From an uncultured Roseburia sp. (lineage in GTDB: Bacteria > Bacillota > Clostridia > Lachnospirales > Lachnospiraceae): a stretch of DNA of 37,144 nt. Positions 5,044 through 20,403 of the stretch are shown one piece after another. The stretch's first letter is position 1. The number at the start of each line of letters is the position of its first letter. The DNA lies in the NCBI GenBank assembly GCA_947088675.1, contig CAMUHN010000030.1:1-37144 (forward strand). Direction: 5' to 3'. The notes beneath the pieces were generated by a model. The model did no database searches and was not told the origin of the DNA. It saw only the letters and a program-made list of their open reading frames with translations. A program made the translations under genes and the position numbers.

Positions 5044-7026
5044 ATGAAACAAAAATTATTTGTGAAAAAGATGATCGCATGGGCTGCTTTTATGATCTGT
5101 GCAGCGTTTTGTCTGTTTTCTCTGATCGGCATTATTTTTCTCTACGAGGAGGATTTCTATGACCGGACCGAGACGGAATACCGCAGGGAATTTTATGAAT
5201 TTGCGGCCTATAACTATTCGGTGCGTGCGCTTCATGGCTACTTAAGCGGAAATTCCCAAAAGAAAGAACTTTCTGAACTGAATTTCCAATATGGAATTAT
5301 TGAAGCGGAAATAATAGACGGATATAACCTGAATCGCGACAACGTATATCTGGAACGCAACTTTACAGAACAGATCAGTCTGGAATCGCCGCAGCTGTAT
5401 GTCTGTTCTTTTACGGTAAACGATGATACGGAGTTTCTGTATTCCAATTCACTGTTTGATCCAAATTCATATGGAACGGCAGTGGTGACACATGAGACAG
5501 AGGAGTCGGCGGCAGGAAACTATTTTGTAGTCAGTATACTGCCCAAAGAGGGGATTGGATACGGGATTTCCGGGGATCTGTTCACGCAGGCGAATACGGT
5601 TGTGTCGATTGCGTGCGCGATGCGGTACAACATATATGTGGTTTTTGTAGTTTCCTTTGTGGCAGGACTGCTGCTGTTCTGGCGGATGGCTGTTCTTGCC
5701 GGAATAAACGGGGAAAAGGGAGAAATCAGGATAAAAGGATTAAACAGACTTCCGCTTGAACTGTATTTGGTAGCTTCATTTGTTATGGAATATTTTCTGA
5801 TGTTGTTTACGGTATCGGTGATGCGGGAATTATATCGCGAGTACAGAATTTTATGTATCGTTTTGGCTTTTTTGCTGATGCTTCTGATTATTATGATTGG
5901 AGCGGCCGTACTGCTTGGTATTGTGGTTCGTATCAAAAAAGACGTATTATGCAAAAATACAATTGTATACAGAATATGCAGCATGTTGCGGAGAGCAGCG
6001 GAACTTTGCGCTAAAAATTTGTCGTTATTAAAGAAATTGCTGCTCTTTTCAGGACTTTATGCACTTTTTCAGATGCTGGCGCTTCTGTGGATACGCAGTC
6101 ACAGGTATATCCCGTTTTTCATCTTTGTGCTCTGTCTGTTGCAGACCACAGTTTTTGTGGGCTTTCTCATTGTCATGGCAATTCAGATGGAGCAGCTGCA
6201 AAAGGGTGCAGAGCGTCTGGCGGCAGGGGATTTAAAGTACCAGACAGATACATCCAGAATGTTCTGGGAGTTTAAGCGTCACGGAGAAAATTTGAACAGT
6301 ATAAGAGACGGGATGAGCCGTGCTGTGGAAGAGCGCATGAAAAGTGAACATTTTAAGACAGAATTAATTACGAATGTATCGCATGATATCAAAACGCCGC
6401 TTACCTCCATCATCAACTATGTGGATCTGCTGGAAAAGGAGGAGCTGCACAATGAAGCTGCAGAGGAATATCTGGAGGTATTGAAGCGGCAGTCTGCCCG
6501 TCTGAAAAAGTTGATTGAAGATTTAATCGAAGCGTCAAAAGCGTCAACCGGAAATTTAAGCGTTACAATGGAAAAACTGGATGCGGGCGTATTCCTGACA
6601 CAGACAGTCGGTGAGTTTGAAGAAAAACTTGCGTCGGCAGATTTGGAACTGAAAATACAAAAGCCCGATCGGCCGGTTTATATTATGGCGGACAGCAGGC
6701 ACTTCTGGCGCGTGATCGACAATCTGATGAATAATATCTGTAAATATGCACAGCCACGGACCCGTGTATATATTAATATAGAAGAAAAAGAACGGAAAAT
6801 CATGTTGATTTTCCGCAATACATCATCACGCGAATTAAACGTCAAAAGCGACGAATTGATGGAGCGGTTTGTGCGCGGCGACAGTGCAAGAAACACGGAG
6901 GGAAACGGGCTTGGATTATCCATTGCCGCCAGCCTTATGGATCTGATGCACGGAGATTTTACATTGAAAATAGACGGCGACTTATTTAAAGTGATTTTAA
7001 CATTTGAGGATTTGCAAAACCAATGA
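5044..7026 (+). CDS. Membrane sensor histidine kinase with six predicted membrane segments
   Basis: The product is 660 residues. The first membrane segment (about 10-34) is followed by a ~155-residue extracellular region, then five more hydrophobic segments (about 196-219, 238-260, 269-297, 331-351, 355-382). A short HAMP-like linker leads into the HisKA domain with phospho-acceptor H447 in VSHDIKTPL, and a HATPase_c domain with the N box in NLMNNI and a G box GNGLGLSIA. It phosphorylates the regulator encoded just upstream. The signal cannot be deduced; the multi-pass region plus a large outer loop fits an envelope signal. The arrangement is frequent for VanS-like kinases of Lachnospiraceae. 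Confidence 0.9.
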   Translation: MKQKLFVKKMIAWAAFMICAAFCLFSLIGIIFLYEEDFYDRTETEYRREFYEFAAYNYSVRALHGYLSGNSQKKELSELNFQYGIIEAEIIDGYNLNRDNVYLERNFTEQISLESPQLYVCSFTVNDDTEFLYSNSLFDPNSYGTAVVTHETEESAAGNYFVVSILPKEGIGYGISGDLFTQANTVVSIACAMRYNIYVVFVVSFVAGLLLFWRMAVLAGINGEKGEIRIKGLNRLPLELYLVASFVMEYFLMLFTVSVMRELYREYRILCIVLAFLLMLLIIMIGAAVLLGIVVRIKKDVLCKNTIVYRICSMLRRAAELCAKNLSLLKKLLLFSGLYALFQMLALLWIRSHRYIPFFIFVLCLLQTTVFVGFLIVMAIQMEQLQKGAERLAAGDLKYQTDTSRMFWEFKRHGENLNSIRDGMSRAVEERMKSEHFKTELITNVSHDIKTPLTSIINYVDLLEKEELHNEAAEEYLEVLKRQSARLKKLIEDLIEASKASTGNLSVTMEKLDAGVFLTQTVGEFEEKLASADLELKIQKPDRPVYIMADSRHFWRVIDNLMNNICKYAQPRTRVYINIEEKERKIMLIFRNTSSRELNVKSDELMERFVRGDSARNTEGNGLGLSIAASLMDLMHGDFTLKIDGDLFKVILTFEDLQNQ

Positions 7027-7117
7027 ATAGATGCGGCTTATCTCTTGCCTTAACATGTGCAAAGCCGTTTGACATATGAAAAGCGCATGAGATTTCGCGC
7101 CAAAAGCGGTAATAGAA

Positions 7118-7146
7118 TTGATTTTTTCTGTGTTTCCTGTTAATAT
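7118..7146 (+). promoter_or_regulatory. Sigma-A promoter of the VanW-GH127-mtnN operon
   Basis: TTGATT (7118-7123), a 17-base spacer and TAATAT (7141-7146) precede GGAGG (7174-7178) and the ATG at 7185. A TTTCGCGCCAAAAG stretch (7093-7106) lies just upstream and matches 13 of 15 positions with the palindrome region upstream of the FN3 gene near 30946. Confidence 0.65.
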
Positions 7147-7184
7147 AACATTGTGAAGTATTAATATGAAAACGGAGGATTTCT

Positions 7185-8078
7185 ATGAGAAAAAACAGAA
7201 TATTGGCCGGAATTTTATCGCTTTTTACCTGTGCGGCCCTTTTGACTGCACATCCTGTCGACATGTCGGCTGCATCCCAGAGCGCGTATCGTACCATTTT
7301 TGACGCCTCTTATTATTACGCAACATATCCGGATCTTGCCAAAGCATACGGCAAAAACGATGCGGCGCTCTTTTCCCATTTTTTAAATTATGGGATTGCC
7401 GAGGGCAGAAGCGGAAGCGCGGAATTTAACGTCAATGCTTACCGCGAACGCTATGAAGATTTAAATGCGGCGTATGGCGACCGTTTACGTTCGTACTATG
7501 ACCATTATCTCTCCTGCGGAAGAGCCGAGGGCAGGATCGCAACCGCAAACGGAGAGCGTTATACGAAAACCTCTGCGGGCACGACGGCAGCTGCCGGCAC
7601 ACAGACGAATGCGGGTACAGGTGTTTCGACGGCCGCGCTCAGCGGGACATATACGACACATTACAAAGAGAACGAATCGCGCGCTACAAATATCAAGGTG
7701 GCAGCGGAACGGATTCATAATGTGACTGTAAATCCGGGAGAGACATTTTCTTTCAGCAATACCATTCTTCCTCGTACGGCTGCAAACGGTTATGTCAGTG
7801 CACCTGTCATCGTGGCGCGCAAGATGACGATGGGAACGGGCGGGGGGATCTGTCAGGTTTCCTCCACATTGTATGCGGCGATGGTGACGGCCGGCATCCC
7901 GGCTACCGAGCGTCATCCGCATTCTTTGAGTATGAGTTATATTCCGCAGGGAATGGATGCAACAATATCCGGAACCGCACTGGATTTGAAATTTAAAAAT
8001 ATCTATTCCGCTCCGATTGTAATTCAATCATCCGCACAAAACGGAACATTGACAATTTCGATCAGCGTCCAGTCCTGA
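7185..8078 (+). CDS. Secreted VanW-domain protein with two N-terminal YPDL-type repeats
   Basis: The 297 residues begin with a signal peptide (about 1-28). Residues about 40-115 hold two copies of a ~40-residue repeat, recognisable by YYYATYPDLAKAYG and the later YRERYEDLNAAYG, each ending in G-x-A-E-G-R; this repeat type is common in extracellular proteins of Clostridia. A low-complexity Thr/Ala/Gly linker leads to the VanW domain (about 165-297), with NPGETFSFSN, the GTGGGICQVSSTLY core and ERHPHS. VanW proteins are named for their place in vanB clusters, but their biochemical role is unknown. The product is probably exported and acts at the cell wall. It is the first gene after a good promoter and just downstream of a two-component system, which could regulate it. 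Confidence 0.85.
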   Translation: MRKNRILAGILSLFTCAALLTAHPVDMSAASQSAYRTIFDASYYYATYPDLAKAYGKNDAALFSHFLNYGIAEGRSGSAEFNVNAYRERYEDLNAAYGDRLRSYYDHYLSCGRAEGRIATANGERYTKTSAGTTAAAGTQTNAGTGVSTAALSGTYTTHYKENESRATNIKVAAERIHNVTVNPGETFSFSNTILPRTAANGYVSAPVIVARKMTMGTGGGICQVSSTLYAAMVTAGIPATERHPHSLSMSYIPQGMDATISGTALDLKFKNIYSAPIVIQSSAQNGTLTISISVQS

Positions 8079-8093
8079 TTGGGGGAAATTAAA

Positions 8094-10112
8094 GTGAAAA
8101 AATTAAAGCCTGAATTAATATCACTGAACCATATCAGGATAAACGATGCGTTTTGGAACCGCTATACTAAGCTTGTGACAGAAGAGATTCTCCCGTACCA
8201 GTGGCGCGCGTTAAACGACGAGGTGGAAGGCGCCGAACCAAGTCATTGTATTTCCAACTTCCGTATTGCAGCCGGGTTAGAGCAGGGCGATTTTTCGGGA
8301 TGGGTGTTTCAGGATACGGATCTGGCAAAATGGCTGGAGGCTGTCGCATATTCCCTGTCCTATGAACAGAATCCCAAACTGGAACAGCTTGCGGACGAGG
8401 CAATTGAGCTGGTGGGCAGCGCCCAGGAAGAGAACGGATATCTCAACACTTATTTTACAATAAGATATCCGGGCAGACAGTTTAAGAATTTAAAAGAGGG
8501 GCACGAACTGTACACGGCCGGACATTTTATCGAAGCGGCCGTCGCCTGGTATAAAGTGACCGGCAAAGACCGGTTTTTAAATATTATGAGAAAGACGGCT
8601 GATCTGATCTGCGATGTTTTTCACACAGAGCGCTATGAGAATGCGGTTTGCGGCCATGAGGAGATTGAGCTTGCGCTGGTAAAACTTGCCGACGTCACAG
8701 GAGAAGAGAAATACTTAAATATGGCATATGATTTCGTCAACCGCAGAGGCTGTGAACCAAATTACCTGTTTACGGAGAGCGGCAGGAACGACTATATTGA
8801 CGTCTGGCATGACAATAATCCTTATCTCAATCTGTATGGGCAGAATCATCTGCCGGTGCGGGAACAAAAAACCGCGGAAGGCCATGCCGTTCGTGCCGTC
8901 TATCTCTACTGCGCCATGGCGGATCTGGCATATGCCTGCCAGGATTTCGCCCTGTGGCAGGCCTGTGAAAATCTGTACCGCAATATTGTGGAAAAAAGAA
9001 TGTACCTTACCGGCGGGATTGGCAGTTCCGGCACATTAGAGCGTTTTACTGTTGATTACGATTTGCCGAACGATACCAATTATTCCGAGAGCTGTGCCTC
9101 GATAGGATTTGCGCTTTTTTGCCGGCGAATGGCACAGATCAGCGGAGACGCCTGTTATATTGATACAATGGAACTTGCGCTTATGAATACGGTGCTGTCC
9201 GGTATTGCGATGGACGGGAAAAGTTTCTTCTATGTAAATCCGCTGGAGGTCTGGCCCGAAAACTGTATTCCGATGACAGATAAAAACCATGTTAAGCCGG
9301 TTCGGCAGAAATGGTTTGGCTGTGCCTGCTGTCCGCCAAATATTACAAGAACGCTTGCGTCTCTTGGCGAGTATGTCTGCTTTGTCGAAAAAAATGCGCT
9401 CTGGCTGAATTTGTTTGCCGGATGTTCCATTGAGACAGAACAGAACGGAGCGCCGCTGACAGTAAAAGTTGACAGCCGGTTTCCTTATGAGGGAAGAGTA
9501 CAGCTGCAGGTCGATTCCGGCAGAGAAACAAATCATACCGCAGACGGAATCCGGCTGCATATGGAGGGATCGGATGCGGCGGCTGGCGAATCAGAATTTT
9601 CTCTTTTCGAACTGCGGATTCGCATCCCCGCCTACGCAAAAAATCCCCGTTTCACGATAGACGGGACATCTGTTGCGCCGCAGGTGGAGCATGGTTATGC
9701 TGTTTTTCGCGAAATGTGGGACCATCAGCGTATTGTATTTACATTTGATATGACGGCGCAGTTTATTTATGCAAACCCGGCCGTTCATGCGGATACCGGA
9801 AAAACGGCCCTGATGCGCGGGCCGCTTGTCTATTGTCTCGAAGAGGAAGACAACGGAGAAAACTTAGCGGCGCTCTATGCGGACACCGGGGCGCCGGTTC
9901 GGGAGACGTTCGAACCGGATCTGATGGGCGGGACAGTAGTGCTTCATGCGTCGGGCAGGCGTGTCAGAAGCAGAAAAGGCGAAAGTCTTTATTCCGCTCA
10001 AAAGCCGGCATTCGATGAGGCGTCACTTACGTTTGTGCCGTATCACAGCTGGGGCAATCGAAAACCGGGCGAGATGGCAGTCTGGGTGAAATATTTGACA
10101 ACGGATCAGTAG
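8094..10112 (+). CDS. GH127-family beta-L-arabinofuranosidase
   Basis: The 672-residue protein belongs to GH127 (PF07944), whose type member is HypBA1 of Bifidobacterium longum. It releases L-arabinose from beta-L-arabinofuranosides of plant hydroxyproline-rich glycoproteins by a cysteine-nucleophile, zinc-assisted mechanism. All active-site positions can be seen: E316 (GTLERF, acid/base), E332 and C334 (ESCAS), and C412-C413 (CACCPPN; C412 as nucleophile, with E332, C334 and C413 binding zinc). There is no signal peptide, so it is cytoplasmic and acts on imported oligosaccharides. The frame opens at TTG 8079, but GGGGGAA at 8081-8087 fits the GTG at 8094. No arabinose transporter or catabolic gene adjoins it. 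Confidence 0.92.
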   Translation: MKKLKPELISLNHIRINDAFWNRYTKLVTEEILPYQWRALNDEVEGAEPSHCISNFRIAAGLEQGDFSGWVFQDTDLAKWLEAVAYSLSYEQNPKLEQLADEAIELVGSAQEENGYLNTYFTIRYPGRQFKNLKEGHELYTAGHFIEAAVAWYKVTGKDRFLNIMRKTADLICDVFHTERYENAVCGHEEIELALVKLADVTGEEKYLNMAYDFVNRRGCEPNYLFTESGRNDYIDVWHDNNPYLNLYGQNHLPVREQKTAEGHAVRAVYLYCAMADLAYACQDFALWQACENLYRNIVEKRMYLTGGIGSSGTLERFTVDYDLPNDTNYSESCASIGFALFCRRMAQISGDACYIDTMELALMNTVLSGIAMDGKSFFYVNPLEVWPENCIPMTDKNHVKPVRQKWFGCACCPPNITRTLASLGEYVCFVEKNALWLNLFAGCSIETEQNGAPLTVKVDSRFPYEGRVQLQVDSGRETNHTADGIRLHMEGSDAAAGESEFSLFELRIRIPAYAKNPRFTIDGTSVAPQVEHGYAVFREMWDHQRIVFTFDMTAQFIYANPAVHADTGKTALMRGPLVYCLEEEDNGENLAALYADTGAPVRETFEPDLMGGTVVLHASGRRVRSRKGESLYSAQKPAFDEASLTFVPYHSWGNRKPGEMAVWVKYLTTDQ

Positions 10113-10129
10113 AAAGGAATACAAAATTT

Positions 10130-10828
10130 ATGGAAAAATTCGGAATTATCGGGGCAATGGAGCTGGAAATCGAGACGTTAAAGAAGCAGATGCTTTTGAG
10201 AAATACGGTACAAAAAGCCGGCATGGATTTTTATGAGGGCAGCTTAAACGGCACGGAAGTCGTGATTGTGCGGTGCGGCATCGGGAAAGTCAATGCAGCT
10301 CTTTGCGTACAGATTCTGGCGGATCTGTTTCGTGTCACGCACATTATTAATACCGGTGTGGCAGGTTCGCTGAATGCAAGTCTTGATATCGGTGATATTC
10401 TGATCTCGAAAGATGCGCTCCACCATGATGTGGACGTGACGATTTTCGGGTATGCGCCCGGAGAAGTGCCGCAGCTGCATACACTGTCATTTACGGCTGA
10501 CGAGAGGATGGCAGCACAGGCCGTTTCTTCCTGTGAAAAAGTAAATCCGGGCATACATGCGATCACCGGACGTGTGGTCAGCGGCGATCAGTTTATCTCA
10601 AAAAAAGAGGTCAAAGAACGTCTGATTTCAGAGTTTCATGGCGACTGCGCTGAAATGGAGGGCGCTTCCATTGCTCATGCGGCATATTTAAATAAGATTC
10701 CGTTTGTGATTATTCGCGCAATATCGGATAAAGCGGACGAGAGCGCAGAGATGGATTATCCGACTTTTGAGCGGGAGGCGGCGAAACATTCGGCAAACCT
10801 GGTGGCTGATATGCTCAGATATCTTTAA
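10130..10828 (+). CDS. mtnN: 5'-methylthioadenosine/S-adenosylhomocysteine nucleosidase
   Basis: The 232-residue product matches the MTAN/Pfs family in length and along its whole sequence: GIIGAME at the start, NTGVAGSLN, HHDVDVTIFGYAPGEVP, and the signature CAEMEGASIAH with RAISDKAD. Catalytic positions equivalent to E. coli E12, E174 and D197 are E13, E177 and D200. It cleaves adenine from MTA, SAH and 5'-deoxyadenosine, in methionine salvage and in release of the autoinducer-2 precursor. It starts 17 bases after the GH127 gene behind GAAAGGA and is likely in that operon, although the two activities are not related. Confidence 0.93.
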   Translation: MEKFGIIGAMELEIETLKKQMLLRNTVQKAGMDFYEGSLNGTEVVIVRCGIGKVNAALCVQILADLFRVTHIINTGVAGSLNASLDIGDILISKDALHHDVDVTIFGYAPGEVPQLHTLSFTADERMAAQAVSSCEKVNPGIHAITGRVVSGDQFISKKEVKERLISEFHGDCAEMEGASIAHAAYLNKIPFVIIRAISDKADESAEMDYPTFEREAAKHSANLVADMLRYL

Positions 10829-10832
10829 CAGA

Positions 10833-10856
10833 AACGCAGCGTGGAAATGCTGCGTT
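10833..10856 (+). terminator. Hairpin after mtnN, possible weak terminator
   Basis: AACGCAGC (10833-10840) and GCTGCGTT (10849-10856) form an 8-bp stem with an 8-base loop, 4 bases after the mtnN stop. The following CCATTTGTT is a poor U tract, so termination would be inefficient. Confidence 0.45.
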
Positions 10857-10952
10857 CCATTTGTTACATACAGATTGATATTATCTCTGAAATCGCCGAT
10901 ATGAAGATCAGAAGCAGCAAAGAGAATGCAGAATCAGACAGGAGGAGCAGAT

Positions 10953-11549
10953 ATGAACATAGGCATGCAGAATAATCCGGTGTTTGGTCTGGGCAGCGTT
11001 TCCGGTTTTAGCAATCGGGGGATGAAGAGTACGCAGCAAAGGCAGCAGCGAGAGTCGGAGAGAGACAGCCAGATCGCGTTTTTTCAAAATCAGAAAGAAA
11101 ATTTAAAGAATATGGAGTGCGGCAGCCTTCCGGAGATTGCCAGAAAGCTTAATATGCTGCATTCCTACGAAGACCAGATTGCCGAGGCAAAGGCGCAGTT
11201 TAACCGGGAACAGATGAGCCATGTCCTGGACGAGGCGAAAGAGCGCGGAGAAAAGATTGCCGAGGCAGCGGAGAAATATGCGCCGAAGACGCCGGAAGAA
11301 TACAGAGAGGATCTTGCGGACGAAGCGACAGAGACGCAGGAGAACGAGGGCGAGATGACCGAACTGTTGGAGGAGATGGTTCCGGAGGAGCTTGAGGAGA
11401 TGACGGAGGAACTGACCGAGGAGCAGTTAGAAGAGCTTCAGGAGGCAAGAGAAGCCGCAGAGCAGCAGGAACAGGAGCTGGCGGCACAGCAGCAGAACAG
11501 AGAGGAAGAACTTTTGTATTCTTACAGAAAGATAGATTTGTATGCTTAG
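10953..11549 (+). CDS. Acidic Gln/Glu-rich coiled-coil protein of unknown function
   Basis: The 198-residue product has no signal peptide or membrane segment. Residues 1-30 are Asn/Gly/Ser-rich, 30-110 are mixed-charge helical, and the C-terminal half is very acidic (clusters such as ELLEEMVPEELEEM) and ends in a Gln-rich helix. I do not recognise a family. GGAGG (10941-10945) seven bases before the ATG at 10953 supports this start rather than the ATG at 10926. It stands between mtnN and a convergent kinase gene and is closed by a long hairpin. The strongly biased composition means that homology searches may be misleading; a structural or scaffolding role is possible but unproven. Confidence 0.7.
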   Translation: MNIGMQNNPVFGLGSVSGFSNRGMKSTQQRQQRESERDSQIAFFQNQKENLKNMECGSLPEIARKLNMLHSYEDQIAEAKAQFNREQMSHVLDEAKERGEKIAEAAEKYAPKTPEEYREDLADEATETQENEGEMTELLEEMVPEELEEMTEELTEEQLEELQEAREAAEQQEQELAAQQQNREEELLYSYRKIDLYA

Positions 11550-11560
11550 TACTGGTACGG

Positions 11561-11604
11561 AGACGCGGGGCTGTTGGGAAATTTTTCCCAACAGCCCCGC
11601 GTCT
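11561..11604. terminator. Long bidirectional hairpin between convergent genes
   Basis: A perfect inverted repeat pairs 11561-11581 with 11584-11604 (21 bp, GC-rich outer part, GGGAAA/TTTCCC at the tip). It lies 12 bases after the acidic-protein stop and 11 bases beyond the stop of the minus-strand kinase. No U tract follows on either side, so termination may be factor-assisted or the hairpin may protect both transcript ends. Confidence 0.7.
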
Positions 11605-11614
11605 GTGTCATATC

Positions 11615-12961
11615 CTAACTGGAATCCTGATTTTGTATCAGCTGAAAACAAAAACAGGCGCCCCCGCCGGGAGTATCCTCCACCCAGATTTTTCCATGAT
11701 GCGCATTTACAATCTCCCTGGCAATGCAAAGCCCCAAACCGAAGTGTTTTTTGTCTGTATGGGAGTTTTGTGCGCGATAAAATCGATCAAATATGAATTC
11801 TTTCTGGCTGTCGGGAATGGAAACGCCGTTATCTGCAACGCGATACTCATAACAATGCAGTGCTGAGAACTTTTTTGCGGCCAGCACAGTATAGTTGAGA
11901 GAGAGCCGGATGGCGCCGCCGTTTGGCGTATAGGAGAGCGCATTGTCAAGCAGGATGGAGAGGAGCTGCTGGATGCGCTCTGCATCCGCCCGGCAGGCGG
12001 GAAGATCCTCTTCGGGCAGTCGTATGGAAAAAGCGATTTGTTTGTCGGCTGCGGCAAGTTCATACTTTTCATAGGCGTCTATCAGCAGAAGATCCGGCTG
12101 GCAGTCAGCGATGTGCATGGGAAGTTTACCGGAATCAGAGTGTGTCAGCAGCAGAAGGTCGGCAATCAGCCGCTGCATCCGCACTCCTTCGGAACGGATC
12201 AGACGCAGAAAATGCAGTTGTTCCTGCTGTGTATCGGCTTTTCTTACAGCCTCCGCGCTGGATAAAATCACGGCAAGCGGCGCGCGTAGTTCATGGGAAG
12301 CAGATGCGGTAAAATGAATCTGATTTTTTCGGTTTTCTTCCAGCGGACGAAGCATTCTCTGAATAAATATCCGGGAGAACAAAAACAACAGGAAAACAGC
12401 GATTACGTCAATTCCGGCAAATAAAATGCGCTGAGACAGGATCTGGCGCGACTGTCTGTCCAGCGGATAAAGCAGCACATAGCCAAGCGCGTTCGCTTCT
12501 TTTGATACGACGCCGGCGGAAACAAAATAGGCGCTTTTATCCGTATCCGTAATGGTAAAATCATGATAAACCGGAAGTATGGAAAAGTACGATTTTGTAA
12601 TATCAAGCTGATGTTTTGATTTCGCATATGCGAGTACATTCGATACAAGTTCATCCCGTTTTTGCGTGGAATAGAGTCTGGCGCTTAAGATCGGCATCCC
12701 ATTGTCATAGAGGTAGAGATAGAACCGGTTATTTTCCTGCACCTGATTGATCCACTGGAGAGAAAAGGAGGTTTGCGTCTGCAGATGCGTGATAACAGAG
12801 TCCCGTTCGTTGCGGAAAGAATAGAGCGTATTTTTTCGTATTCCGCTTTCTGAAATAAACAGGCAAAACAGGGTTAGTATGATTAAGATCGTACCGGTAA
12901 CAGCTGTCAGGAAAAAAGAAAGCTGTACATGCAGTTTTTTGATAATTGTCTGATCTTTCAT
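11615..12961 (-). CDS. Sensor histidine kinase of the second two-component system
   Basis: The 448-residue protein has a classical layout: a membrane segment (about 14-38), a ~130-residue extracellular sensor region, a second membrane segment (about 176-196), the HisKA domain with H223 in SASHELRAPL, and HATPase_c with N box (LDNALSYTPNGG), VADNG, FDRFYRA and the HFGLGLCIAREI loop. It partners the regulator upstream, whose stop overlaps its ATG by four bases (ATGA). The pair is transcribed away from the lipoprotein/permease operon at 13789, which it probably controls; this is inferred from position only. Confidence 0.92.
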   Translation of the reverse strand: MKDQTIIKKLHVQLSFFLTAVTGTILIILTLFCLFISESGIRKNTLYSFRNERDSVITHLQTQTSFSLQWINQVQENNRFYLYLYDNGMPILSARLYSTQKRDELVSNVLAYAKSKHQLDITKSYFSILPVYHDFTITDTDKSAYFVSAGVVSKEANALGYVLLYPLDRQSRQILSQRILFAGIDVIAVFLLFLFSRIFIQRMLRPLEENRKNQIHFTASASHELRAPLAVILSSAEAVRKADTQQEQLHFLRLIRSEGVRMQRLIADLLLLTHSDSGKLPMHIADCQPDLLLIDAYEKYELAAADKQIAFSIRLPEEDLPACRADAERIQQLLSILLDNALSYTPNGGAIRLSLNYTVLAAKKFSALHCYEYRVADNGVSIPDSQKEFIFDRFYRAQNSHTDKKHFGLGLCIAREIVNAHHGKIWVEDTPGGGACFCFQLIQNQDSS

Positions 12962-13635
12962 TTTGGCACTTCCATACGGTATCCGACTCCGCGCACTGTT
13001 TCAAGAGTTGCGCTGCTTCCGACAGAGGCAAGACGTTTGCGCAGAAAGTGAATATAGGTATCCAGATTGCTCTCCTCAACCGGAGCGTCAGCGCCCCAGA
13101 CACGTGAAAGTATGGTCATACGCCGCAGCGTCGTATTTGTTTCCGAAAGGAACACTTCCAAAAGCCTCCCCTCGCGGCCAGACAATCGAATCTGTCCAGT
13201 CGGTCCTTTTAATTCCCGAAGCGCAGAGTCATAGGAGAGGTTGCCGAGTGAACGGATATCCTGTTCCAGGAATTTTCCGGTGCGGCGGGAGATAGACCGG
13301 ATACGGGCCAGAAGTTCCTCAAAGGCAAATGGTTTTACAATATAATCATCGGCGCCGCCGTCAAGTCCTTCAATTCTGTCATACAGTTCTCCGAGTGCGG
13401 TAATCATAATGACAGGAGTTTTCATCCCAGCATCTCTTGCTTTTTTCAGAACAAAAAGGCCGTTCATAGTGGGGAGCATCCGGTCAAGCAGGATGAGATC
13501 AAATGCGTCCTGTAAAAATAATTCCAGCCCGTCCCTGCCGTCGTGGCAGACTGTAACGGCAAAATGTTCTTTTTTTAACTGAAATTGCAGGGTATCACAG
13601 AGAGCCTCGTCATCTTCGATCAATAATAAATTCAT
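12958..13635 (-). CDS. OmpR/PhoB-family response regulator of the second system
   Basis: The 225-residue protein has a receiver domain with D8/D9, phospho-acceptor D51 (LLDRMLP), T79 and K101, and a winged-helix effector with LSGREGRLLEVFLSE, TYIHFLRKRL and RGVGYRMEV. The ribosome binding site GGAGGTGAT lies eight bases before the ATG on the minus strand and is near-perfect, so the pair should be well translated. A 153-base region separates it from the divergent operon and contains direct repeats that may be its sites. Confidence 0.93.
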   Translation of the reverse strand: MNLLLIEDDEALCDTLQFQLKKEHFAVTVCHDGRDGLELFLQDAFDLILLDRMLPTMNGLFVLKKARDAGMKTPVIMITALGELYDRIEGLDGGADDYIVKPFAFEELLARIRSISRRTGKFLEQDIRSLGNLSYDSALRELKGPTGQIRLSGREGRLLEVFLSETNTTLRRMTILSRVWGADAPVEESNLDTYIHFLRKRLASVGSSATLETVRGVGYRMEVPK

Positions 13636-13788
13636 AATGTTTTATCACCTCCAGAATATCATAGCATATCTGTCTTAAAATAATCTTTAAAAATTTTGTG
13701 AAATTAAAGACGTTTTTTCAGAAAAATTAAAGGGAAATTTGTTACTATGTCAGTGAAAAGCAAAGGAAAACAGCTATGGAGGAATGAT
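13636..13788. promoter_or_regulatory. Divergent control region with AAATTAAAG direct repeats
   Basis: This A/T-rich interval holds two exact AAATTAAAG copies (13701-13709 and 13724-13732) 23 bases apart, about two helical turns, as OmpR-type dimers prefer. TACTAT (13743-13748) is a possible -10 for the plus-strand operon with no good -35. On the minus strand a TATGAT-like -10 occurs just upstream of the regulator's GGAGGTGAT site. Control of both directions by the adjacent regulator is inference. Confidence 0.45.
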
Positions 13789-16071
13789 ATGAAAAAGAAA
13801 ATTTTAAGCGCAGTTTTGGCATTTACTGCGATGACAGGACTGCTGGCCGGGTGTGGAGGCGCTGATATGACAGCAGACAGCGAGGCTTTTGGCGCCGCAA
13901 TTGATGAGCTGGATGACGGCAGCGGAGAAGCGGACAGGAAAGAAAACGGGAGCGAAAAGATGGGACGTTTTCTCGAATCACAGGTGGAACTTCCGGTTGA
14001 GGCAATGGATCGTATCCTGTGTCTTGGAAAAAGCGCGGACGGAACGATCGTTGTGATGGCTGCGGATGAGGGCGGATCCAGTTATCTTCTTACATCATCC
14101 GATCTGGGAGAAAGCTGGAACAGTACAAAGACACAGATCAAAGATGCCTATGTCACCAGCAGCGGCGTGACGGCGGACGGCGGCGTCATTTTGGAAGGAT
14201 ATTTCGAGGGAGATGCCGCGGGAATAAAAAAAGTAGCGCCGGACGGAACGGCTGTTGATCTGAATCCGCAGCTGCCGGGTACCGGGGACGATGCATCCGT
14301 TCTGCAGTGCGGAACGGATGCCGCGGGAAATCTTTATGTGATGACTCTGGAGCAAAACGTCTATCAGATAGATACGGACAGCGGGTCTGCAGTAAAGCTG
14401 GACTGCTCTGATCCGTCAGCCGGTTTCTTTGGCATTGCCGGAAATCGTTTTCTCACAGTGACACAGCATGGGATCCTGATTTATAATTTATCGGAAAGCC
14501 GTGCGGAGGATGCCAACACGGCATTGGATGAGGCGATCAGGCAGAATAAGGCTCTTGCGGCAAAGGATACCGACAGAGGGTATCCGATGATTTTTACCGA
14601 AGGCATAGAGGAGGACGGTGTTGTCTATGCGACACATCAGGGTGTTTTTTACTGTAAGGCGGGAGCCGGGATGGCGGAGCAGCTGATCAATGGCGAATTG
14701 TGCTCGCTCGGTGATACGATGGGTTCCCTGTTTGAAATTATCATGCTGGATGAGGAACACTTTTTCGCGCATATTTCCGATTCCTCCGGCAAAGAGAAAC
14801 TGTTAAAATTCAGTTATAACAAAACAGTATCCGCAGTCCCTGAGAAGCAGCTGACCATATATGCGCTGGAGGAATCTTCGCTGCTTCGAAAAGCGGCTTC
14901 TGTTTATCAAAACGGGAATCAGGACGTCTATGTCAAAATTGAGATTGGCTTAAACGGTGTGGAGGGAATTACGGCGGAAGATGCAATCTCGGCGTTAAAT
15001 ACGAGAATACTGGCAGGGGATGCGCCGGATCTGTTTGTGCTGGACGGGCTGCCGGTGGAAAGTTATATCGAAAAAGGAGTCCTTTCGGATATCAGCGGTT
15101 TTGTACAGCAGTTGGAACAGGACGGAGGCTTTTTTACAAATGTATCTGACAATTATAAACGGGACGGGGCATTTTATGAACTTCCGGTCTGCTTTTACCC
15201 GCTCCTGGTACAGGCGCCTGCCGGGATCCTGAGTCAGACCAGCGATCTTATGTCGTTTGCAGATTATGTGCAGAAAGCTTCGGACGAGGGAGACGCAAAA
15301 GTCCTGAGCCTGAAAAACGCGCATATGCTGTTAAAAATGTTGTTTCTGGCAGACGCAAATAACTGGATCAGGGACGGCAAAGCGGACAGCGCGCAATTAG
15401 AGACATGGCTTACGGCGGTAAAAAAACTGTATGATGCAAACGGAGAAAAAAATGAGGAGAGAGGAACCTGGGATAATTTGGATGGATATCTGCTCAGTTC
15501 CTTTAATGAAGGAGATTTGATGCTCGGCGATGCGAAAGCGGAATTTGGTACTGTCGTAGATATTGTGGGCTTTGTCAATGTGCTGGCGGGGCAGGAGGAA
15601 CTCGGATATGACTACGATGTATTCAATAAAAACAGAGGGAACTGCTTTATACCGTACCTGTCGATGGGGATCGGCAGTTCGACGGATGCAAGGGAGGAAG
15701 CGGAAGCGTTTCTTGCACTGCTCTTTGGCGACGAATGTGCAGGCGCGGGCACAGGTTTTCCGGTGACACGCAAAGGCTGGGAGAAAGTACGTGCGGACGG
15801 ACTGGCAACATACGGACCGGACAGTCAGCTCAGTATCGGGGCAGGTACACCCGACGGCAGACATTACGGCTTTACGATGAATCAGTTTAACGAGGCGGCG
15901 GCAGACCGTCTGGAATCCATTCTTTTGGGGCTTGATGTGCCTGCGGTGGCGGACGTTTCCGTACAAAACATTGTGCTGGATGCAGCAGAAGATTATTTAA
16001 AAGGAAATGCAACGCTTTCGGATGCACTGTCATCCATTGATCAGAAACTTACGCTCTATTTAAATGAATAA
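13789..16071 (+). CDS. Lipoprotein with propeller-like N-terminal half and family-1 solute-binding C-terminal half
   Basis: The 760-residue product starts at the ATG at 13789, with GGAGGA (13778-13783) upstream; the frame itself opens earlier. A lipoprotein signal ends in LLAGC, so the protein is anchored outside the membrane by its cysteine. Residues about 50-340 look like a beta-propeller: repeated strands with SADGTIVVM, an Asp box SSDLGESW (103-110), ADGGVIL and DAAGNLYVM. Residues about 353-760 resemble sugar-binding proteins of the SBP_bac_1 type: QLTIYAL start, NTRILAGDAPDLFVLD, and a late lobe with FLALLFGDE. Typical binding proteins are about 400-450 residues, so the N-terminal half is an extra module. 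It overlaps the first permease gene by 8 bases. The ligand is unknown. Confidence 0.8.
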   Translation: MKKKILSAVLAFTAMTGLLAGCGGADMTADSEAFGAAIDELDDGSGEADRKENGSEKMGRFLESQVELPVEAMDRILCLGKSADGTIVVMAADEGGSSYLLTSSDLGESWNSTKTQIKDAYVTSSGVTADGGVILEGYFEGDAAGIKKVAPDGTAVDLNPQLPGTGDDASVLQCGTDAAGNLYVMTLEQNVYQIDTDSGSAVKLDCSDPSAGFFGIAGNRFLTVTQHGILIYNLSESRAEDANTALDEAIRQNKALAAKDTDRGYPMIFTEGIEEDGVVYATHQGVFYCKAGAGMAEQLINGELCSLGDTMGSLFEIIMLDEEHFFAHISDSSGKEKLLKFSYNKTVSAVPEKQLTIYALEESSLLRKAASVYQNGNQDVYVKIEIGLNGVEGITAEDAISALNTRILAGDAPDLFVLDGLPVESYIEKGVLSDISGFVQQLEQDGGFFTNVSDNYKRDGAFYELPVCFYPLLVQAPAGILSQTSDLMSFADYVQKASDEGDAKVLSLKNAHMLLKMLFLADANNWIRDGKADSAQLETWLTAVKKLYDANGEKNEERGTWDNLDGYLLSSFNEGDLMLGDAKAEFGTVVDIVGFVNVLAGQEELGYDYDVFNKNRGNCFIPYLSMGIGSSTDAREEAEAFLALLFGDECAGAGTGFPVTRKGWEKVRADGLATYGPDSQLSIGAGTPDGRHYGFTMNQFNEAAADRLESILLGLDVPAVADVSVQNIVLDAAEDYLKGNATLSDALSSIDQKLTLYLNE

Positions 16072-16915
16072 GATGAAAAAAAAATATACGGGTTATTTTT
16101 TTATACTGCCCGCTTTCACAGGGGTTATGATCTTTTATATCCTGCCGTTTTTTGATGTGATCAGACGTTCCTTTACTTCTGTTTATGGCGGTGGGTTTGC
16201 GGGGATCGGCAACTATACTGCCGTTCTCACGAACGGTGCGTTTTTAAAGGCGGCGGCCAATACCGTAAGGTTTACGCTGCTTGGCATTCCGCTTTTGATG
16301 GCGCTCTCTCTGCTGCTCGCACTTGGACTGACCGGAATTTTCGGAAAGTACAGACAGGCGGCAGCGCTGCTGAAAAGTACGTTTCTTGTACCGATGGCGC
16401 TGCCGGCGGCCAGCGTTGTACTGTTTTTTCGACTGCTTTTTCACGGAAAAGGGTTTTTCAATGCAGTTTTGTCCTGGTTTGGGTTTTCCGGTGCAGACTG
16501 GATGAGCGGGATGCGCGCGCTGTTTGTTCTGATATTTTGCTATATCTGGAAAAATGCAGGGTATACGACCGTATTGTGGATGGCCGGGTTCGCCGGTGTT
16601 CCGGAAAGCGTCTACGAGGCGGCAAAAGTCGATGGCGCCGGGGCATGGAATACATTCTGGCATATCACAATTCCGATGATACGGCCGGTGATTTTTATGA
16701 TCGCTATGATATCGCTGTTAAATTCATTTCAGATTTACCGTGAAGTCTGGCTTTTGGCCGGAAATTATCCGGCTGAACCAATCTATCTGGTACAGCATGT
16801 ATTTCACAACTGGTTTTTAAGTCTGTCGATGGATAAAATAGCGGCGGGCGCAGTGCTGTTGTGTATCTTTGTAGCGATATTAATTGAATTTTTGCAGAGA
16901 ATCTGGGAGAAGTAG
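16064..16915 (+). CDS. ABC transporter permease, MalF/UgpA type
   Basis: The 283-residue integral membrane protein has about six hydrophobic segments. The EAA loop that contacts the ATPase is visible as YEAAKVDGAGAWNTFWHI with IPMI after it. It belongs to the binding-protein-dependent sugar importer permeases (CUT1 class). The ATG at 16064 overlaps the lipoprotein stop; an ATG at 16073 is an equally possible start three codons later, and neither has a clear ribosome binding site, so translation is probably coupled. It should pair with the next gene to form the channel. No ATPase gene is in the window, so a shared MsmX/UgpC-type ATPase elsewhere must be assumed if this is an importer. Confidence 0.9.
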   Translation: MNKMKKKYTGYFFILPAFTGVMIFYILPFFDVIRRSFTSVYGGGFAGIGNYTAVLTNGAFLKAAANTVRFTLLGIPLLMALSLLLALGLTGIFGKYRQAAALLKSTFLVPMALPAASVVLFFRLLFHGKGFFNAVLSWFGFSGADWMSGMRALFVLIFCYIWKNAGYTTVLWMAGFAGVPESVYEAAKVDGAGAWNTFWHITIPMIRPVIFMIAMISLLNSFQIYREVWLLAGNYPAEPIYLVQHVFHNWFLSLSMDKIAAGAVLLCIFVAILIEFLQRIWEK

Positions 16916-16916
16916 T

Positions 16917-17753
16917 GTGAAGAGAAAATTATTATTGTGCAGTCTTTGTATTCCGGCAGCCGCAGCCGTGCTGCCTCTTATCTTTTTAATTACCGGTTCT
17001 GTGACCGGAAATCTTGAGATCAAAGAGTATCTGTCGCCGATTATCTTCGGCGGGGACGGTTATGCAGTCTGGCGTTTTCCTGTGTACCCGACATTTCGCA
17101 ATTTTGTAGAACTCTTACTCGATTCACCCGAATTTTTTCAGATGTTTTGGAATACGCAAAAGATTACGATTGGAATACTGGCCGGACAGATTCTGTTTGG
17201 CGTTCCTGCCGCATGGGGGCTTGCCAGCTATGAATTTCCGGGAAAAAAGATGATCTACCGCATCTATATTTTGCTTATGATGATGCCGTTTCAGGTGACA
17301 ATGCTTTCGGAATATCTGCAGCTAAAGAGTCTTTCTCTTTTGGATACGCACTGGGCTGTGATTCTGCCGGGGATGTTTGCAACATTCACGCCTTTCCTTA
17401 TTTACCGGTTTTTCTGTGATATACCGAAAGAACTGTTGGAAGCGGCGCGAATGGATGGCGCCGGAGAGCTTCGAATTTTTTTTTCAATAGGCCTCCCGAT
17501 CGGTTCCTCCGGTGTGATCGCCGCCCTGTTGCTTGCGTTTTTAACCTGTCAGAGTATGCTGGAGGAACCGTTAACGTTTATAGAGACAAAATCCAGATTT
17601 CCGCTCTCTTTGTATCTTCCGCAGATTGATCTGACACAGGCAGGATTTGCAATCTGCGCTTCTTTTGTAGCGGCTCTGCCGGCAGTGATCTTGTTCCTGA
17701 TGGGGCAGGACTATCTGGAACAGGGCATTGTGGCTGCAGGAGTAAAATCATAG
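16917..17753 (+). CDS. ABC transporter permease, MalG/UgpE type
   Basis: The 278-residue membrane protein carries the second-permease EAA loop (LLEAARMDGAGELRIFF with LPI). GGGAG at 16905-16909 sits seven bases before the GTG at 16917, one base after the first permease stop; the longer TTG-initiated frame is less likely. It pairs with the preceding MalF-type subunit. It is slightly divergent from typical MalG proteins, for instance CQSMLEEPLTFIETKS after the EAA region, where importers usually have a WN-x-F segment. Confidence 0.87.
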   Translation: MKRKLLLCSLCIPAAAAVLPLIFLITGSVTGNLEIKEYLSPIIFGGDGYAVWRFPVYPTFRNFVELLLDSPEFFQMFWNTQKITIGILAGQILFGVPAAWGLASYEFPGKKMIYRIYILLMMMPFQVTMLSEYLQLKSLSLLDTHWAVILPGMFATFTPFLIYRFFCDIPKELLEAARMDGAGELRIFFSIGLPIGSSGVIAALLLAFLTCQSMLEEPLTFIETKSRFPLSLYLPQIDLTQAGFAICASFVAALPAVILFLMGQDYLEQGIVAAGVKS

Positions 17754-17778
17754 AAAGTTATTGTAGGAAAGGTGAAGT

Positions 17779-19101
17779 ATGAAAGAAAATCACAAAAAGA
17801 TCCGGCGTATGGCGGCAAAGGCGCTGGCCTGGTTTTTTGCGGCCATGGTCGGCCTTACCATAGTCTCGCGTGCTGCGGCTTCCTTTACCGTTCCGCGCGT
17901 CATTACGAAAATACCGGAGTATCAGTCAGTCAGTCATACGGTGTATTGTGACGGCACGCTTCTGGCAAAGCGTGAGATGGCCATTGTGGCGGAGGCGGAT
18001 CTGCTGATTGATACTGTTTTTGTTTCGGTTGGGCAGCGGATTGAAGAGGGACAGACCGTTGCGTCTTTAAACCTGGAGGATCTCTCGGAAAAGACAGAAC
18101 TGCTGAGAGAAGAAATCCGGGCGGCAGAACAGGAAAGAGAGGCGCAGCAGACAAACAGCAGCGTTGCGCTGAAACGGGCAAAAGAAGATTTGGAAACGGC
18201 GTCCTCCTGTGCACAAAGAGCGGTTGACAGAGCAAAAGAAGAAGCCGAAAGCGCGGCTGCTGCATACCAGAGTTACCAGAATATGCTGGGCAGCCGGGAT
18301 GTGACAGAGGAGGAGTATCGGCAGTCGGTTGCGCTGCTGGAAGAAAAAAAAGCGAAACAGGAGGCTTATGAACAGGCGCAAAGAGACAAAGAGACTGCTT
18401 TGCGCGATGCGAACCGGGCAATGGAAGATGCAACGCAAAGTGCAAAGCAAAGCGATGTAAAACAGCCGGGAGCAGGACAGAGACAAAAACAGCTGGAACG
18501 ATTTGAGGCGCTTTTGGCGGCAAAAGGAAATATAACGGCTCCGACAGCGGGAATGATCACCGAGGTGATCGGCCGCGCTGGGCAGAAGACAACAGATACC
18601 GCATTTTGTATGATAGCAGACCCCGGCAGCGGTCTTTTATTTTCGGCACAGGTGAGCAGGGAGGATGCGGATTTGATCGAAATCGGAGATACCATGACGC
18701 TAACGCATAATAATCAGAAAGTGGAGGACGTTACCGTTGGCGCGCTCAAAACAGAGAGCGACGGGAGCGTGACGATACTTGCGGATGTTGTCGGGACAGA
18801 TTGGACCCCGGGCAGCAGTGCAAAGATGGAACTGTCCGGGAAACCATCGGAGCGCGGGTTTACAGTTCCGCTTAGCGCTTTGCGCTCGCAGGACGGCAGT
18901 TATTATCTTCTTGTTTTACAGGAGACACAGACAGTTCTGGGCACACAGAAAATGGCGGTTCGTGTCGACGTCACGGTGCAGGAGAAAAACGACAATCTGG
19001 CGCTTGTGGAGGGCGGGGGGCTTTCCGGTGAGTCGGAAGTGATTATCGACAGTGACCGGGCAGTCTCAAATGGAAGTCAGGTGCGGTTATGGGAAAAATA
19101 A
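17779..19101 (+). CDS. HlyD/MacA-type membrane fusion (periplasmic adaptor) protein
   Basis: The 440-residue protein has one N-terminal membrane anchor (about 14-36). It continues with a split biotinyl-lipoyl domain (first half near DTVFVSVGQRIEEGQTVASL, second half near NITAPTAGMITEVIG), divided by a ~150-residue alpha-helical hairpin rich in Ala/Glu/Gln, and then beta-barrel and membrane-proximal domains up to EVIIDSDRAVSNGSQV. This is the layout of adaptors of MacB-type ABC exporters and other efflux systems; in Gram-positives they work with MacB-like permeases. Finding it 25 bases after import-type permeases is unusual. It overlaps the next gene by 13 bases. Confidence 0.85.
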   Translation: MKENHKKIRRMAAKALAWFFAAMVGLTIVSRAAASFTVPRVITKIPEYQSVSHTVYCDGTLLAKREMAIVAEADLLIDTVFVSVGQRIEEGQTVASLNLEDLSEKTELLREEIRAAEQEREAQQTNSSVALKRAKEDLETASSCAQRAVDRAKEEAESAAAAYQSYQNMLGSRDVTEEEYRQSVALLEEKKAKQEAYEQAQRDKETALRDANRAMEDATQSAKQSDVKQPGAGQRQKQLERFEALLAAKGNITAPTAGMITEVIGRAGQKTTDTAFCMIADPGSGLLFSAQVSREDADLIEIGDTMTLTHNNQKVEDVTVGALKTESDGSVTILADVVGTDWTPGSSAKMELSGKPSERGFTVPLSALRSQDGSYYLLVLQETQTVLGTQKMAVRVDVTVQEKNDNLALVEGGGLSGESEVIIDSDRAVSNGSQVRLWEK

Positions 19102-19973
19102 AGAGAGAGGCATGTAAACTTGTGATCTTTTTGTCCGCAGCGTTTGCGTGTTTTGTCTGCGCGGATGATTTCTGTCAAAAAGCCTTTATTCTGCGGCAGA
19201 ATGTGAACCTGCTTGTTCTGGGCGATAAAATAACAGCAGAGCGGGTGGCCGAGATACGAAAGATGGAGTCTGACAACGGTGATGTTACCGAATTTACCGT
19301 GTGGACAATGGCCGGACAGGCAGAAATTGAAGACAGGGACCAATTGCATCGTACCACAGCCGATGTGATCGAAATCAACGGGTCAAGCGAGCTGCTTTTG
19401 TTTTCGGGCGCCGTACTTCACGAGCAGGATCAGGAGGGCTGTCTGCTTGGCAAAGAAACGGCGCAGCAGTTATTTGGCAGTGCAGATGCAGCGGGTGGTC
19501 AGATTCTCTGTAAAGGGCGTCTTTTCACAGTCAGGGGGATTCTGTGGGAGACAGATAATTGCGTGATTGTTCAGGCACAGAACGATACGTTTTTTGAGCG
19601 CATCACATTAGCAGGGAGGGCTGGCGTCACAAAATCCATGCAGGCGGATCGTTTTTGTCAAAGTTATGGGATTCAGGCCAGTCTGCTTCGAACGGAATGT
19701 TTATCCGAAGATCTGCTTTATGAGCTTGCGCCGGCGAAATGGTCTGATTTTGAGGGACTTTCTGCGAAGCTGGAAAGTTTTAAGGCAGGGATCGCAGCGT
19801 TTGCGGGCTGTGAGAAAAGCTGCCTGGAACAGCGCTTTCTGCAGTGGAAAAAAACAGGGGGAATGTTAATCGTTGGAGGGCTTATATTCTGCCTGGCCGG
19901 GATTTTGGCGGGGAAAAATTTTTTCACACAAATCCTCTTGATTCGCGTCGGAGAAAGTTGTAATATGAAATAA
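19089..19973 (+). CDS. Stand-alone MacB periplasmic-core-domain-like protein with a membrane segment at each end
   Basis: The 294-residue protein has a hydrophobic N-terminus (about 10-30), a ~220-residue outer region and a C-terminal membrane segment (about 256-280). In the outer region, GCLLGKETAQQLFGSADA followed by G, a few residues and GRLFTVRGILWE fits the core of MacB_PCD domains (usual pattern: VLG-x-x-x-A-x-x-LFG, GK-x-I, pF-V-GvL). A normal MacB/FtsX permease has four membrane helices and often a fused or separate ATPase; here three helices and the ATPase are missing. It is translationally coupled to the adaptor, its natural partner type. Membership in the MacB fold is inferred from motif only. 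The end of the operon lacks a visible terminator. Confidence 0.6.
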   Translation: MGKIKREACKLVIFLSAAFACFVCADDFCQKAFILRQNVNLLVLGDKITAERVAEIRKMESDNGDVTEFTVWTMAGQAEIEDRDQLHRTTADVIEINGSSELLLFSGAVLHEQDQEGCLLGKETAQQLFGSADAAGGQILCKGRLFTVRGILWETDNCVIVQAQNDTFFERITLAGRAGVTKSMQADRFCQSYGIQASLLRTECLSEDLLYELAPAKWSDFEGLSAKLESFKAGIAAFAGCEKSCLEQRFLQWKKTGGMLIVGGLIFCLAGILAGKNFFTQILLIRVGESCNMK

Positions 19974-20001
19974 AATACTTCGATAAAGGGGGATGTTTTT
20001 C

Positions 20002-20403
20002 ATGTATGAGATGAAACCGGAATACTATACCGGAATCGAAATGATTGACAAAGAACATGCGAGGTTGTTTGAACTGGTACAGCAGACATCGGATTTACTG
20101 AACAATGAATACCTGTTGGACAAAGCAAATGAGATTGTGGGTCTTGTCTCCGAATTGATCAACTACACAAGGACTCATTTTTCCCACGAGGAGGAATATA
20201 TGGAAAAGATCGGCTATGCCGGTATAAAGGATCATATTCCGCTGCACCGCAAATTTGAAGACAAACTGATGGAAATTGATCTCGAAGCAATTGAGTCTGA
20301 TTTTGAGCATCAGAATGAAACGGTCGAGGATCTGCTTGGATTTTTGCTGAACTGGCTTGTAGATCATATTTTGTATACGGATATGAAATATGTAAATAAA
20401 TAA
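20002..20403 (+). CDS. Bacteriohemerythrin
   Basis: The 133-residue protein has the complete diiron signature of the hemerythrin family: H19, H59-x3-E63, H78-x3-H82 and H122-x4-D127. Four helices carry these ligands. Such proteins bind O2 reversibly (or NO) and in anaerobes are thought to buffer or sense oxygen. GGGGG at 19988-19992 fits the ATG at 20002; the ATG at 19993 touches that site and is too close. It starts 28 bases after the preceding operon and may be read from it or from its own promoter, which I cannot identify. Confidence 0.93.
   Translation: MYEMKPEYYTGIEMIDKEHARLFELVQQTSDLLNNEYLLDKANEIVGLVSELINYTRTHFSHEEEYMEKIGYAGIKDHIPLHRKFEDKLMEIDLEAIESDFEHQNETVEDLLGFLLNWLVDHILYTDMKYVNK

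Follow-up and report, generated by a model that had tools for sequence, protein, structure and literature searches.

Whether the permeases of an importer and proteins of the efflux-pump type can belong to one machine is a question raised by an operon of an uncultured Roseburia sp. (Lachnospiraceae), which lies on the plus strand at positions 13789-19973 of a 37,144-nucleotide stretch of DNA (here called the window; GenBank assembly GCA_947088675.1, contig CAMUHN010000030.1, forward strand from position 1). Its five genes encode a solute-binding protein (SBP) with a lipoprotein signal, a MalF-type and a MalG-type permease, a MacA/HlyD-type adaptor and a MacB-core-like membrane protein. The genes are tightly packed, with an 8-base overlap between the SBP and MalF genes, a 1-base gap between MalF and MalG, a 25-base gap ahead of the adaptor gene and a 13-base overlap between the adaptor and MacB-like genes, and none of the five encodes an ATPase; on all these points the coordinates agree exactly with the original prediction, made for this DNA from its letters alone. 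Adaptors and MacB core domains are usually regarded as exporter parts. The reading favoured by the present analysis, for which we judge the chances evenly balanced, is a conserved CUT1-class importer that draws its power from a shared MsmX-type ATPase and is fitted with a motorless, MacAB-derived accessory complex outside the membrane.

The gene set was traced across 150 genera of the family, with the MacB-like protein and the first permease as queries, and 60 regions were fetched. The MacB-like protein gave matches in 22 of the 150 genomes and the first permease in 143, ordinary CUT1 permeases included. Named GTDB genomes were in addition scanned with the permease alignment, yielding 593 pattern matches and 571 relatives, the best 80 of which were kept; the nearest named relative among these 80 was an uncultured Roseburia with a first permease 91% identical to that of the window, and cultured species were represented as well (e.g., Coprococcus catus, Faecalicatena orotica and Diplocloster agilis). 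The first permease served to select all loci but L066, L120 and L231-L234, which were selected by MacB-like matches; L066 and L120 were not counted as permease loci, while L232 and the window itself were. This resulted in 118 distinct loci of this permease type (loci were treated as distinct unless their last 150 residues were identical, which leaves near-copies such as L079/L197 and L121/window in the set), of which the 94 with at least 4.5 kb of DNA on both sides were counted and the other 24 dropped for their short flanks. Genes of relatives came from our own open reading frame (ORF) caller, which missed or merged some, such as MalG at L061, L134, L150 and L161. Profiles were trained on L061-L107, and 56 untrained loci, found by the permease alone, were counted apart.

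The adaptor gene was present at all 94 loci, the MacB-like gene at 86, an SBP gene at 85 and two-component genes (kinase or regulator) at 62, with corresponding figures of 56, 51, 50 and 43 for the 56 untrained loci. Thirty-eight loci had exactly the gene order of the window, and a further 14 had the SBP-MalF-MalG-adaptor-MacB-like order in the absence of two-component genes. The same content also occurred in permuted orders (SBP-adaptor-MacB-like-MalF-MalG at four loci, adaptor-MacB-like-MalF-MalG at one), and median gaps between neighboring genes were 3, -4, 18 and -4 bases across loci. The response regulator was divergent at 53 of the 94 loci.

The association also holds in reverse. Among the 28 matches of at least 80 bits that the MacB-like family profile gave in the 150 genera, 27 shared a contig with this permease type and lay no more than ~4 kb from it; the 28th sits on a contig that starts at the adaptor gene (G147:C108), and in the same genome MalG is cut off by the end of another contig. 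Weaker matches (~18-55 bits), which were partly sorted, were additional pieces of those genes, members of the more distant subgroup or what appear to be true MacB proteins. Across 291 genomes of the class, the profile gave 17 matches at E ≤ 1e-8, including two outside the family at ~228 bits, and in two distant Clostridia (G394 and G258; 62 and 49 bits) a permease-permease-adaptor-MacB-like set stands beside ordinary SBP genes.

A quick permease tree of 65 rows, built with a midpoint root and no bootstrap and accompanied by long-branch warnings, gathered all rows that have an adaptor, whether full or reduced, into a single group of 55 (SH-aLRT [Shimodaira-Hasegawa-like approximate likelihood ratio test] support 100). 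Within this group, L113 was the sole row lacking an adaptor, and the ten rows outside it were ordinary CUT1 permeases, all without one. For this tree, the label for a reduced ('mini') adaptor was set by hand in five rows, and that of L076_2 was overridden, its apparent adaptor being that of a neighboring system. Ordinary CUT1 permeases without these genes are a different branch. Three other CUT1-type pairs of the window genome (contigs C31, C3 and C40) have neither adaptor nor MacB-like gene; after a fourth, on C13, comes a short protein that is weakly assigned as adaptor-like. The seven genes (the five of the operon plus kinase and regulator) share a common history: over 50 loci their distances correlate at 0.62-0.89, with the MacB-like protein lowest, and when seven gene pairs were each tested by permutation, none of the 500 permutations came up to the observed value.

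These results bear on the simplest alternative, namely that importer and efflux-type genes are chance neighbors or that the latter are an occasional insertion. The eight of 94 loci at which the MacB-like gene went undetected are all that such an account could draw on; against it stand the adaptor, present at every one of the 94 loci and of the 56 untrained ones, and the single group in the permease tree. Permease pairs normally lacking the adaptor and MacB-like genes, the pattern that the original prediction had named as a sign of mere neighborhood, were not what this permease type displayed. We therefore reject a chance neighborhood, whose probability is negligible given the locus counts, the tree and the reverse test, and uphold the claim of one system.

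The importer half of the operon carries the features of a CUT1 system. The SBP gene (13789-16071, plus strand) has a longest ORF beginning at 13747; the start codon at 13789, preceded by GGAGG, leads into a signal peptide with the lipobox LAGC (13840-13860). The protein matched SBP_bac_1 at 31.2 bits (cut-off 26), as did 56 of 61 aligned relatives at E ≤ 0.01. In its C-terminal part, the family profile matched CbpC (7x0o; 2e-30), and its N-terminal part resembles a beta-propeller, with matches to WD40/NHL propellers (e.g., TRIM2 at 1.4e-7 and WDR5 at ~1e-6). At L094, L102, L103, L106 and L107, a single permease-adaptor-MacB-like set is ringed by one to three genes for such propeller-type SBPs, and these loci lack the two-component genes. 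Both permeases scored above the Pfam cut-off for BPD_transp_1 and have an EAA loop: EAAKVDGAG at 16616-16642 in the MalF-type protein (16064-16915, plus strand), and EAARMDGAG at 17439-17465 in the MalG-type protein (16917-17753, plus strand, GTG start). In 29 aligned relatives of the MalF-type permease, A186, A187 and G191 of the loop were invariant and E185 was conserved in at least 90%.

A motif search detected no ATPase within the operon span at any of the 94 loci. Four loci have one directly beside the operon on the same strand (366-387 residues), and others lie elsewhere in the fetched regions, for example at L089 and L129. The five ATPases that were typed, i.e. those four and that of L193, were all UgpC-like, four above the cut-off and L179 just under it (430.7 against 432 bits). 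No exporter-type ATPase of the kind that powers a MacAB exporter was found within or directly beside the operon at the 94 loci. The genome from which the window derives (3.17 Mb in 122 contigs, 87.6% complete) has one UgpC-type ATPase above the cut-off, a stand-alone gene away from permeases and near genes that by eye are gyrase-like. In B. subtilis, one MsmX drives several permease pairs, as described in PMC11466899. The original suggestion, in which adaptor and MacB-like domain would dock on a CUT1-type channel that relies on a common MsmX-type ATPase, is consistent with the EAA loops, with the UgpC/MsmX-type ATPases beside relatives and with the stand-alone gene.

The names given to the remaining two operon genes needed the support of their families: SBP and both permeases passed Pfam cut-offs on their own, whereas the single copies of adaptor and MacB-like protein fell below. 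The window adaptor (17779-19101, plus strand) reached 23.4 bits for HlyD_D23 (Pfam cut-off 30) and 71.9 bits for RND_mfp (NCBIfam cut-off 94.9). HlyD_3, however, was matched at E ≤ 0.1 by 27 of 36 relatives, and the family profile matched many solved adaptors, among them MexJ, Spr0693 (5xu0), MacA and EmrA, so that at family level this is a MacA-type adaptor such as MacAB-type (type VII) exporters possess. Its architecture comprises an N-terminal helix, a coiled-coil hairpin between two lipoyl halves, a beta-barrel and a membrane-proximal part.

A first, iterated adaptor profile had also taken in proteins of 200-250 residues encoded after MalG at L108, L109, L110, L111 and L114. Owing to suspected contamination by these short proteins, profiles were rebuilt from the main group only. 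The clean adaptor profile still scored 107 bits for the protein of L108, 72 for L111, 46 for L110 and 30 for L109, and gave no match at L114; in NCBIfam, the short proteins of L111 and L114 matched nothing. Their identity as reduced adaptors is moderately supported by these scores at L108, L111 and L110 and weakly at L109, and for L114 inspection by eye and the first profile are a weak pointer in the same direction. The L114 locus is a second CUT1-type locus of the window genome (contig C13), with regulator, kinase, SBP and two permeases, followed at 6753-7412 by a 219-residue protein that may resemble the adaptor in its anchor and C-terminal part and nowhere else.

The MacB-like protein (19089-19973, plus strand) scored 22.3 bits for MacB_PCD on its own (Pfam cut-off 27; match at 19338-19550). 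At family level, this MacB periplasmic core domain was matched at E ≤ 0.1 by 28 of 33 relatives, and family profiles matched the solved core domains of MacB and YknZ (best 8.5e-8; 1.5e-7 in a second search), which bears out the label 'MacB-like core domain' of the original prediction. According to a hydropathy scan, by which all transmembrane helices were called, most relatives begin with helix 1, which is followed by the core; then come helices 2 and 3 and, beyond an outside loop, helix 4, with further helices in some cases. Helices 2 and 3 are joined by a short, basic segment that lacks a MacB-type coupling motif, in contrast to the true MacB beside L096. This pair of helices is absent, or too weakly hydrophobic to be called, in the copies of G056, G147 and the window; the window protein has only two strongly hydrophobic stretches (residues 11-29 and 257-275) and is thus without even the helices that would bear a coupling helix. 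FtsX was absent from all 25 families matched by the 33 relatives, and no coupling helix of the MacB type was seen by eye. The protein is therefore no FtsX-type four-helix permease with a coupling helix, as a MacAB exporter has; the sequence indicates that it keeps part of the MacB core and is not a MacB permease. The most conserved stretch of the family is the motif P-x-x-W-S-D-F in the outside loop (19731-19751 in the window), five positions of which are conserved in at least 90% of 66 aligned sequences. At L113, MalG is followed by a gene (10673-11782) for a 370-residue protein that was matched by no profile; by eye, its C-terminal half is like the part of the MacB-like protein from helix 2 through the loop to helix 4, and the core is missing.

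An efflux pump formed by adaptor and MacB-like protein, with its ATPase encoded elsewhere and the permeases as mere neighbors, would explain why the two are homologous to MacA and the MacB core, and ordinary MacAB-like genes do occur a few genes away at four loci. It is at odds with the missing FtsX match, with the missing coupling helix, with a window copy that lacks the hairpin of helices 2 and 3, and with the want of an exporter-type ATPase in or next to the operons. With these hallmarks gone, we reject the exporter reading as very improbable, and with it the idea of the MacB-like protein as an exporter subunit. The window genome encodes an apparently ordinary set of the MacAB type on another contig (L230:6082-11363, contig C2), with two adaptor-like genes, a gene for a 225-residue protein between them and a 416-residue MacB-like protein.

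Divergently from the operon, a sensor histidine kinase (11615-12961, minus strand; HisKA and HATPase_c) and an OmpR/PhoB-type response regulator (12958-13635, minus strand; Response_reg and Trans_reg_C) are encoded, all four domains scoring above Pfam cut-offs, so that the two-component system originally placed at 11615-13635 is real. Could permeases, SBP, adaptor and MacB-like protein mainly be a receptor for this system, with uptake secondary, much as certain kinases are gated by transporters? The frequency of the two-component genes (62 of 94 loci) and the orientation of the regulator, which is divergent at most of them and on the same strand at seven, are compatible with this, and so are the distances of kinase and regulator, which correlate with those of SBP and adaptor at 0.84-0.88. 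On the other hand, 32 of the 94 loci have no such two-component match, including some with full adaptor and MacB-like genes, and the retained EAA loops and UgpC-type ATPases beside some relatives speak for transport. Kinases of the Bce type are intramembrane-sensing and are not known to have an outside sensor domain, whereas the window kinase has one of its own, ~145 residues between its two helices (residues 18-36 and 182-200). We regard a mainly sensory complex as unlikely, while giving it real weight.

For the importer with a MacAB-derived accessory complex, the following course of events can be proposed. The propeller-SBP lipoprotein would capture a substrate, probably a glycan or another solute of the wall zone, and feed it to MalF/MalG, while the single UgpC/MsmX-type ATPase of the genome, common to other CUT1 permeases, would dock on the EAA loops and power import. 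The adaptor may oligomerize like other MacA-type adaptors, seated on the MacB-like core as MacA is on MacB; placed beside MalF/MalG, it could serve to hold the propeller-SBP, to reach across the wall zone, or to do both at once. The tubes that MacA-type adaptors form are hexameric, and the pneumococcal one spans roughly the depth of the wall zone (PMC5768738); peptidoglycan binding has been reported for YknX (PMC5985334). Since it has no coupling helix, the MacB-like protein cannot itself transmit force from an ATPase, and adaptor and core would make up a passive tube or scaffold across the wall zone that keeps SBP and permease in register or guides the substrate inward. Where present, the two-component pair may adjust expression according to the substrate or the condition of the wall. 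Complex formation, the tube, the substrate, the pairing with the ATPase and the role of the two-component genes are what we infer from the genes. A bolder version, in which an ancestral MacAB adaptor tube and core lost their motor, were recruited by a CUT1 importer and now guide molecules inward across the wall zone to the permease, where once they had guided them out, with expression tuned by the two-component system, is offered tentatively and is on balance doubtful.

Several observations weigh against the proposed importer. In some relatives the only adaptor-like protein is short and lacks the lipoyl and hairpin parts, so that a tube cannot be general, and the eight loci without a detectable MacB-like gene mean that this gene is either not indispensable or has diverged past detection. 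The distance comparison had no unlinked control, so that the correlation speaks for joint inheritance, not contact; contact, an oligomer and transport are predictions. The genes downstream are mixed: a close co-directional next gene is found at 42 of 89 loci and includes, by eye, SBPs, ATPases and regulators. Finally, L096, L136, L152 and L198 also have, at a distance of a few genes, weak matches to adaptor and MacB; these resemble an ordinary MacAB pump and make a functional link to export conceivable.

The same outside parts might serve the cell wall in another way, with adaptor and MacB-like protein positioning wall enzymes or gripping peptidoglycan, and the importer taking up released fragments. 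FtsX-type proteins, by analogy, position hydrolases. In this direction point the outside loop with P-x-x-W-S-D-F, where conservation of the MacB-like protein is highest, a gene for a D,D-carboxypeptidase-like protein between adaptor and MacB-like genes at L062 (5611-6318, minus strand; VanY-B/G 269.9 bits, cut-off 400), and the peptidoglycan binding reported for YknX (PMC5985334). Yet that carboxypeptidase was the only one seen, among the few flanking genes typed, and the nearest solved structure to the SBP domain is the sugar-binding CbpC; such a wall device appears decidedly unlikely. Elsewhere in the window, a GH127-like glycosidase gene (by eye) is found upstream of the operon at 8079-10112, and a hemerythrin-like gene (19993-20403, by eye), also present in the nearest relative (L121), begins 19 bases 3′ of it. 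A promoter scan returned 16 promoter-like sites against 12.1 expected and nothing usable.

Returning to the proposed importer, its core is a known CUT1 system. Like the CUT1 importers of B. subtilis, for which sharing of MsmX is described in PMC11466899, it has an SBP, MalF/MalG proteins with EAA loops and, probably, a UgpC/MsmX-type ATPase encoded elsewhere. It differs in that the SBP bears a beta-propeller, that an adaptor and a MacB-core-like protein are (nearly) always alongside, and that OmpR-type two-component genes are often present. With Gram-positive MacAB-like pumps (Spr0693-0694-0695, YknWXYZ) it shares a MacA-type adaptor and a MacB-type core protein, while lacking their exporter ATPase, FtsX match and coupling helix and being joined to importer genes. 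Like Bce-type modules, its transporter genes adjoin an OmpR-type two-component system; however, they encode importer permeases next to a kinase with a large outside domain, whereas the Bce transporter, as described in PMC11466899, is a ten-helix exporter-type permease. Among open-licence papers, preprints excluded, we found none describing this combination of importer, adaptor and MacB-like protein, and the accessory complex is, as far as we are aware, new in the CUT1 setting.

In many Lachnospiraceae and a few other Clostridia, then, adaptor and MacB core belong, by conservation, to an importer operon, and an automatic annotation of the kind 'efflux adaptor subunit' would be misleading at these loci. 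This raises the question, left open by the review PMC5985334, of what purpose adaptors serve when a cell has no outer membrane. The system is small, occurs in cultured species and is accessible to tests; if import across the wall through a former MacAB tube were true, it would represent a tripartite-like importer in bacteria that have no outer membrane.

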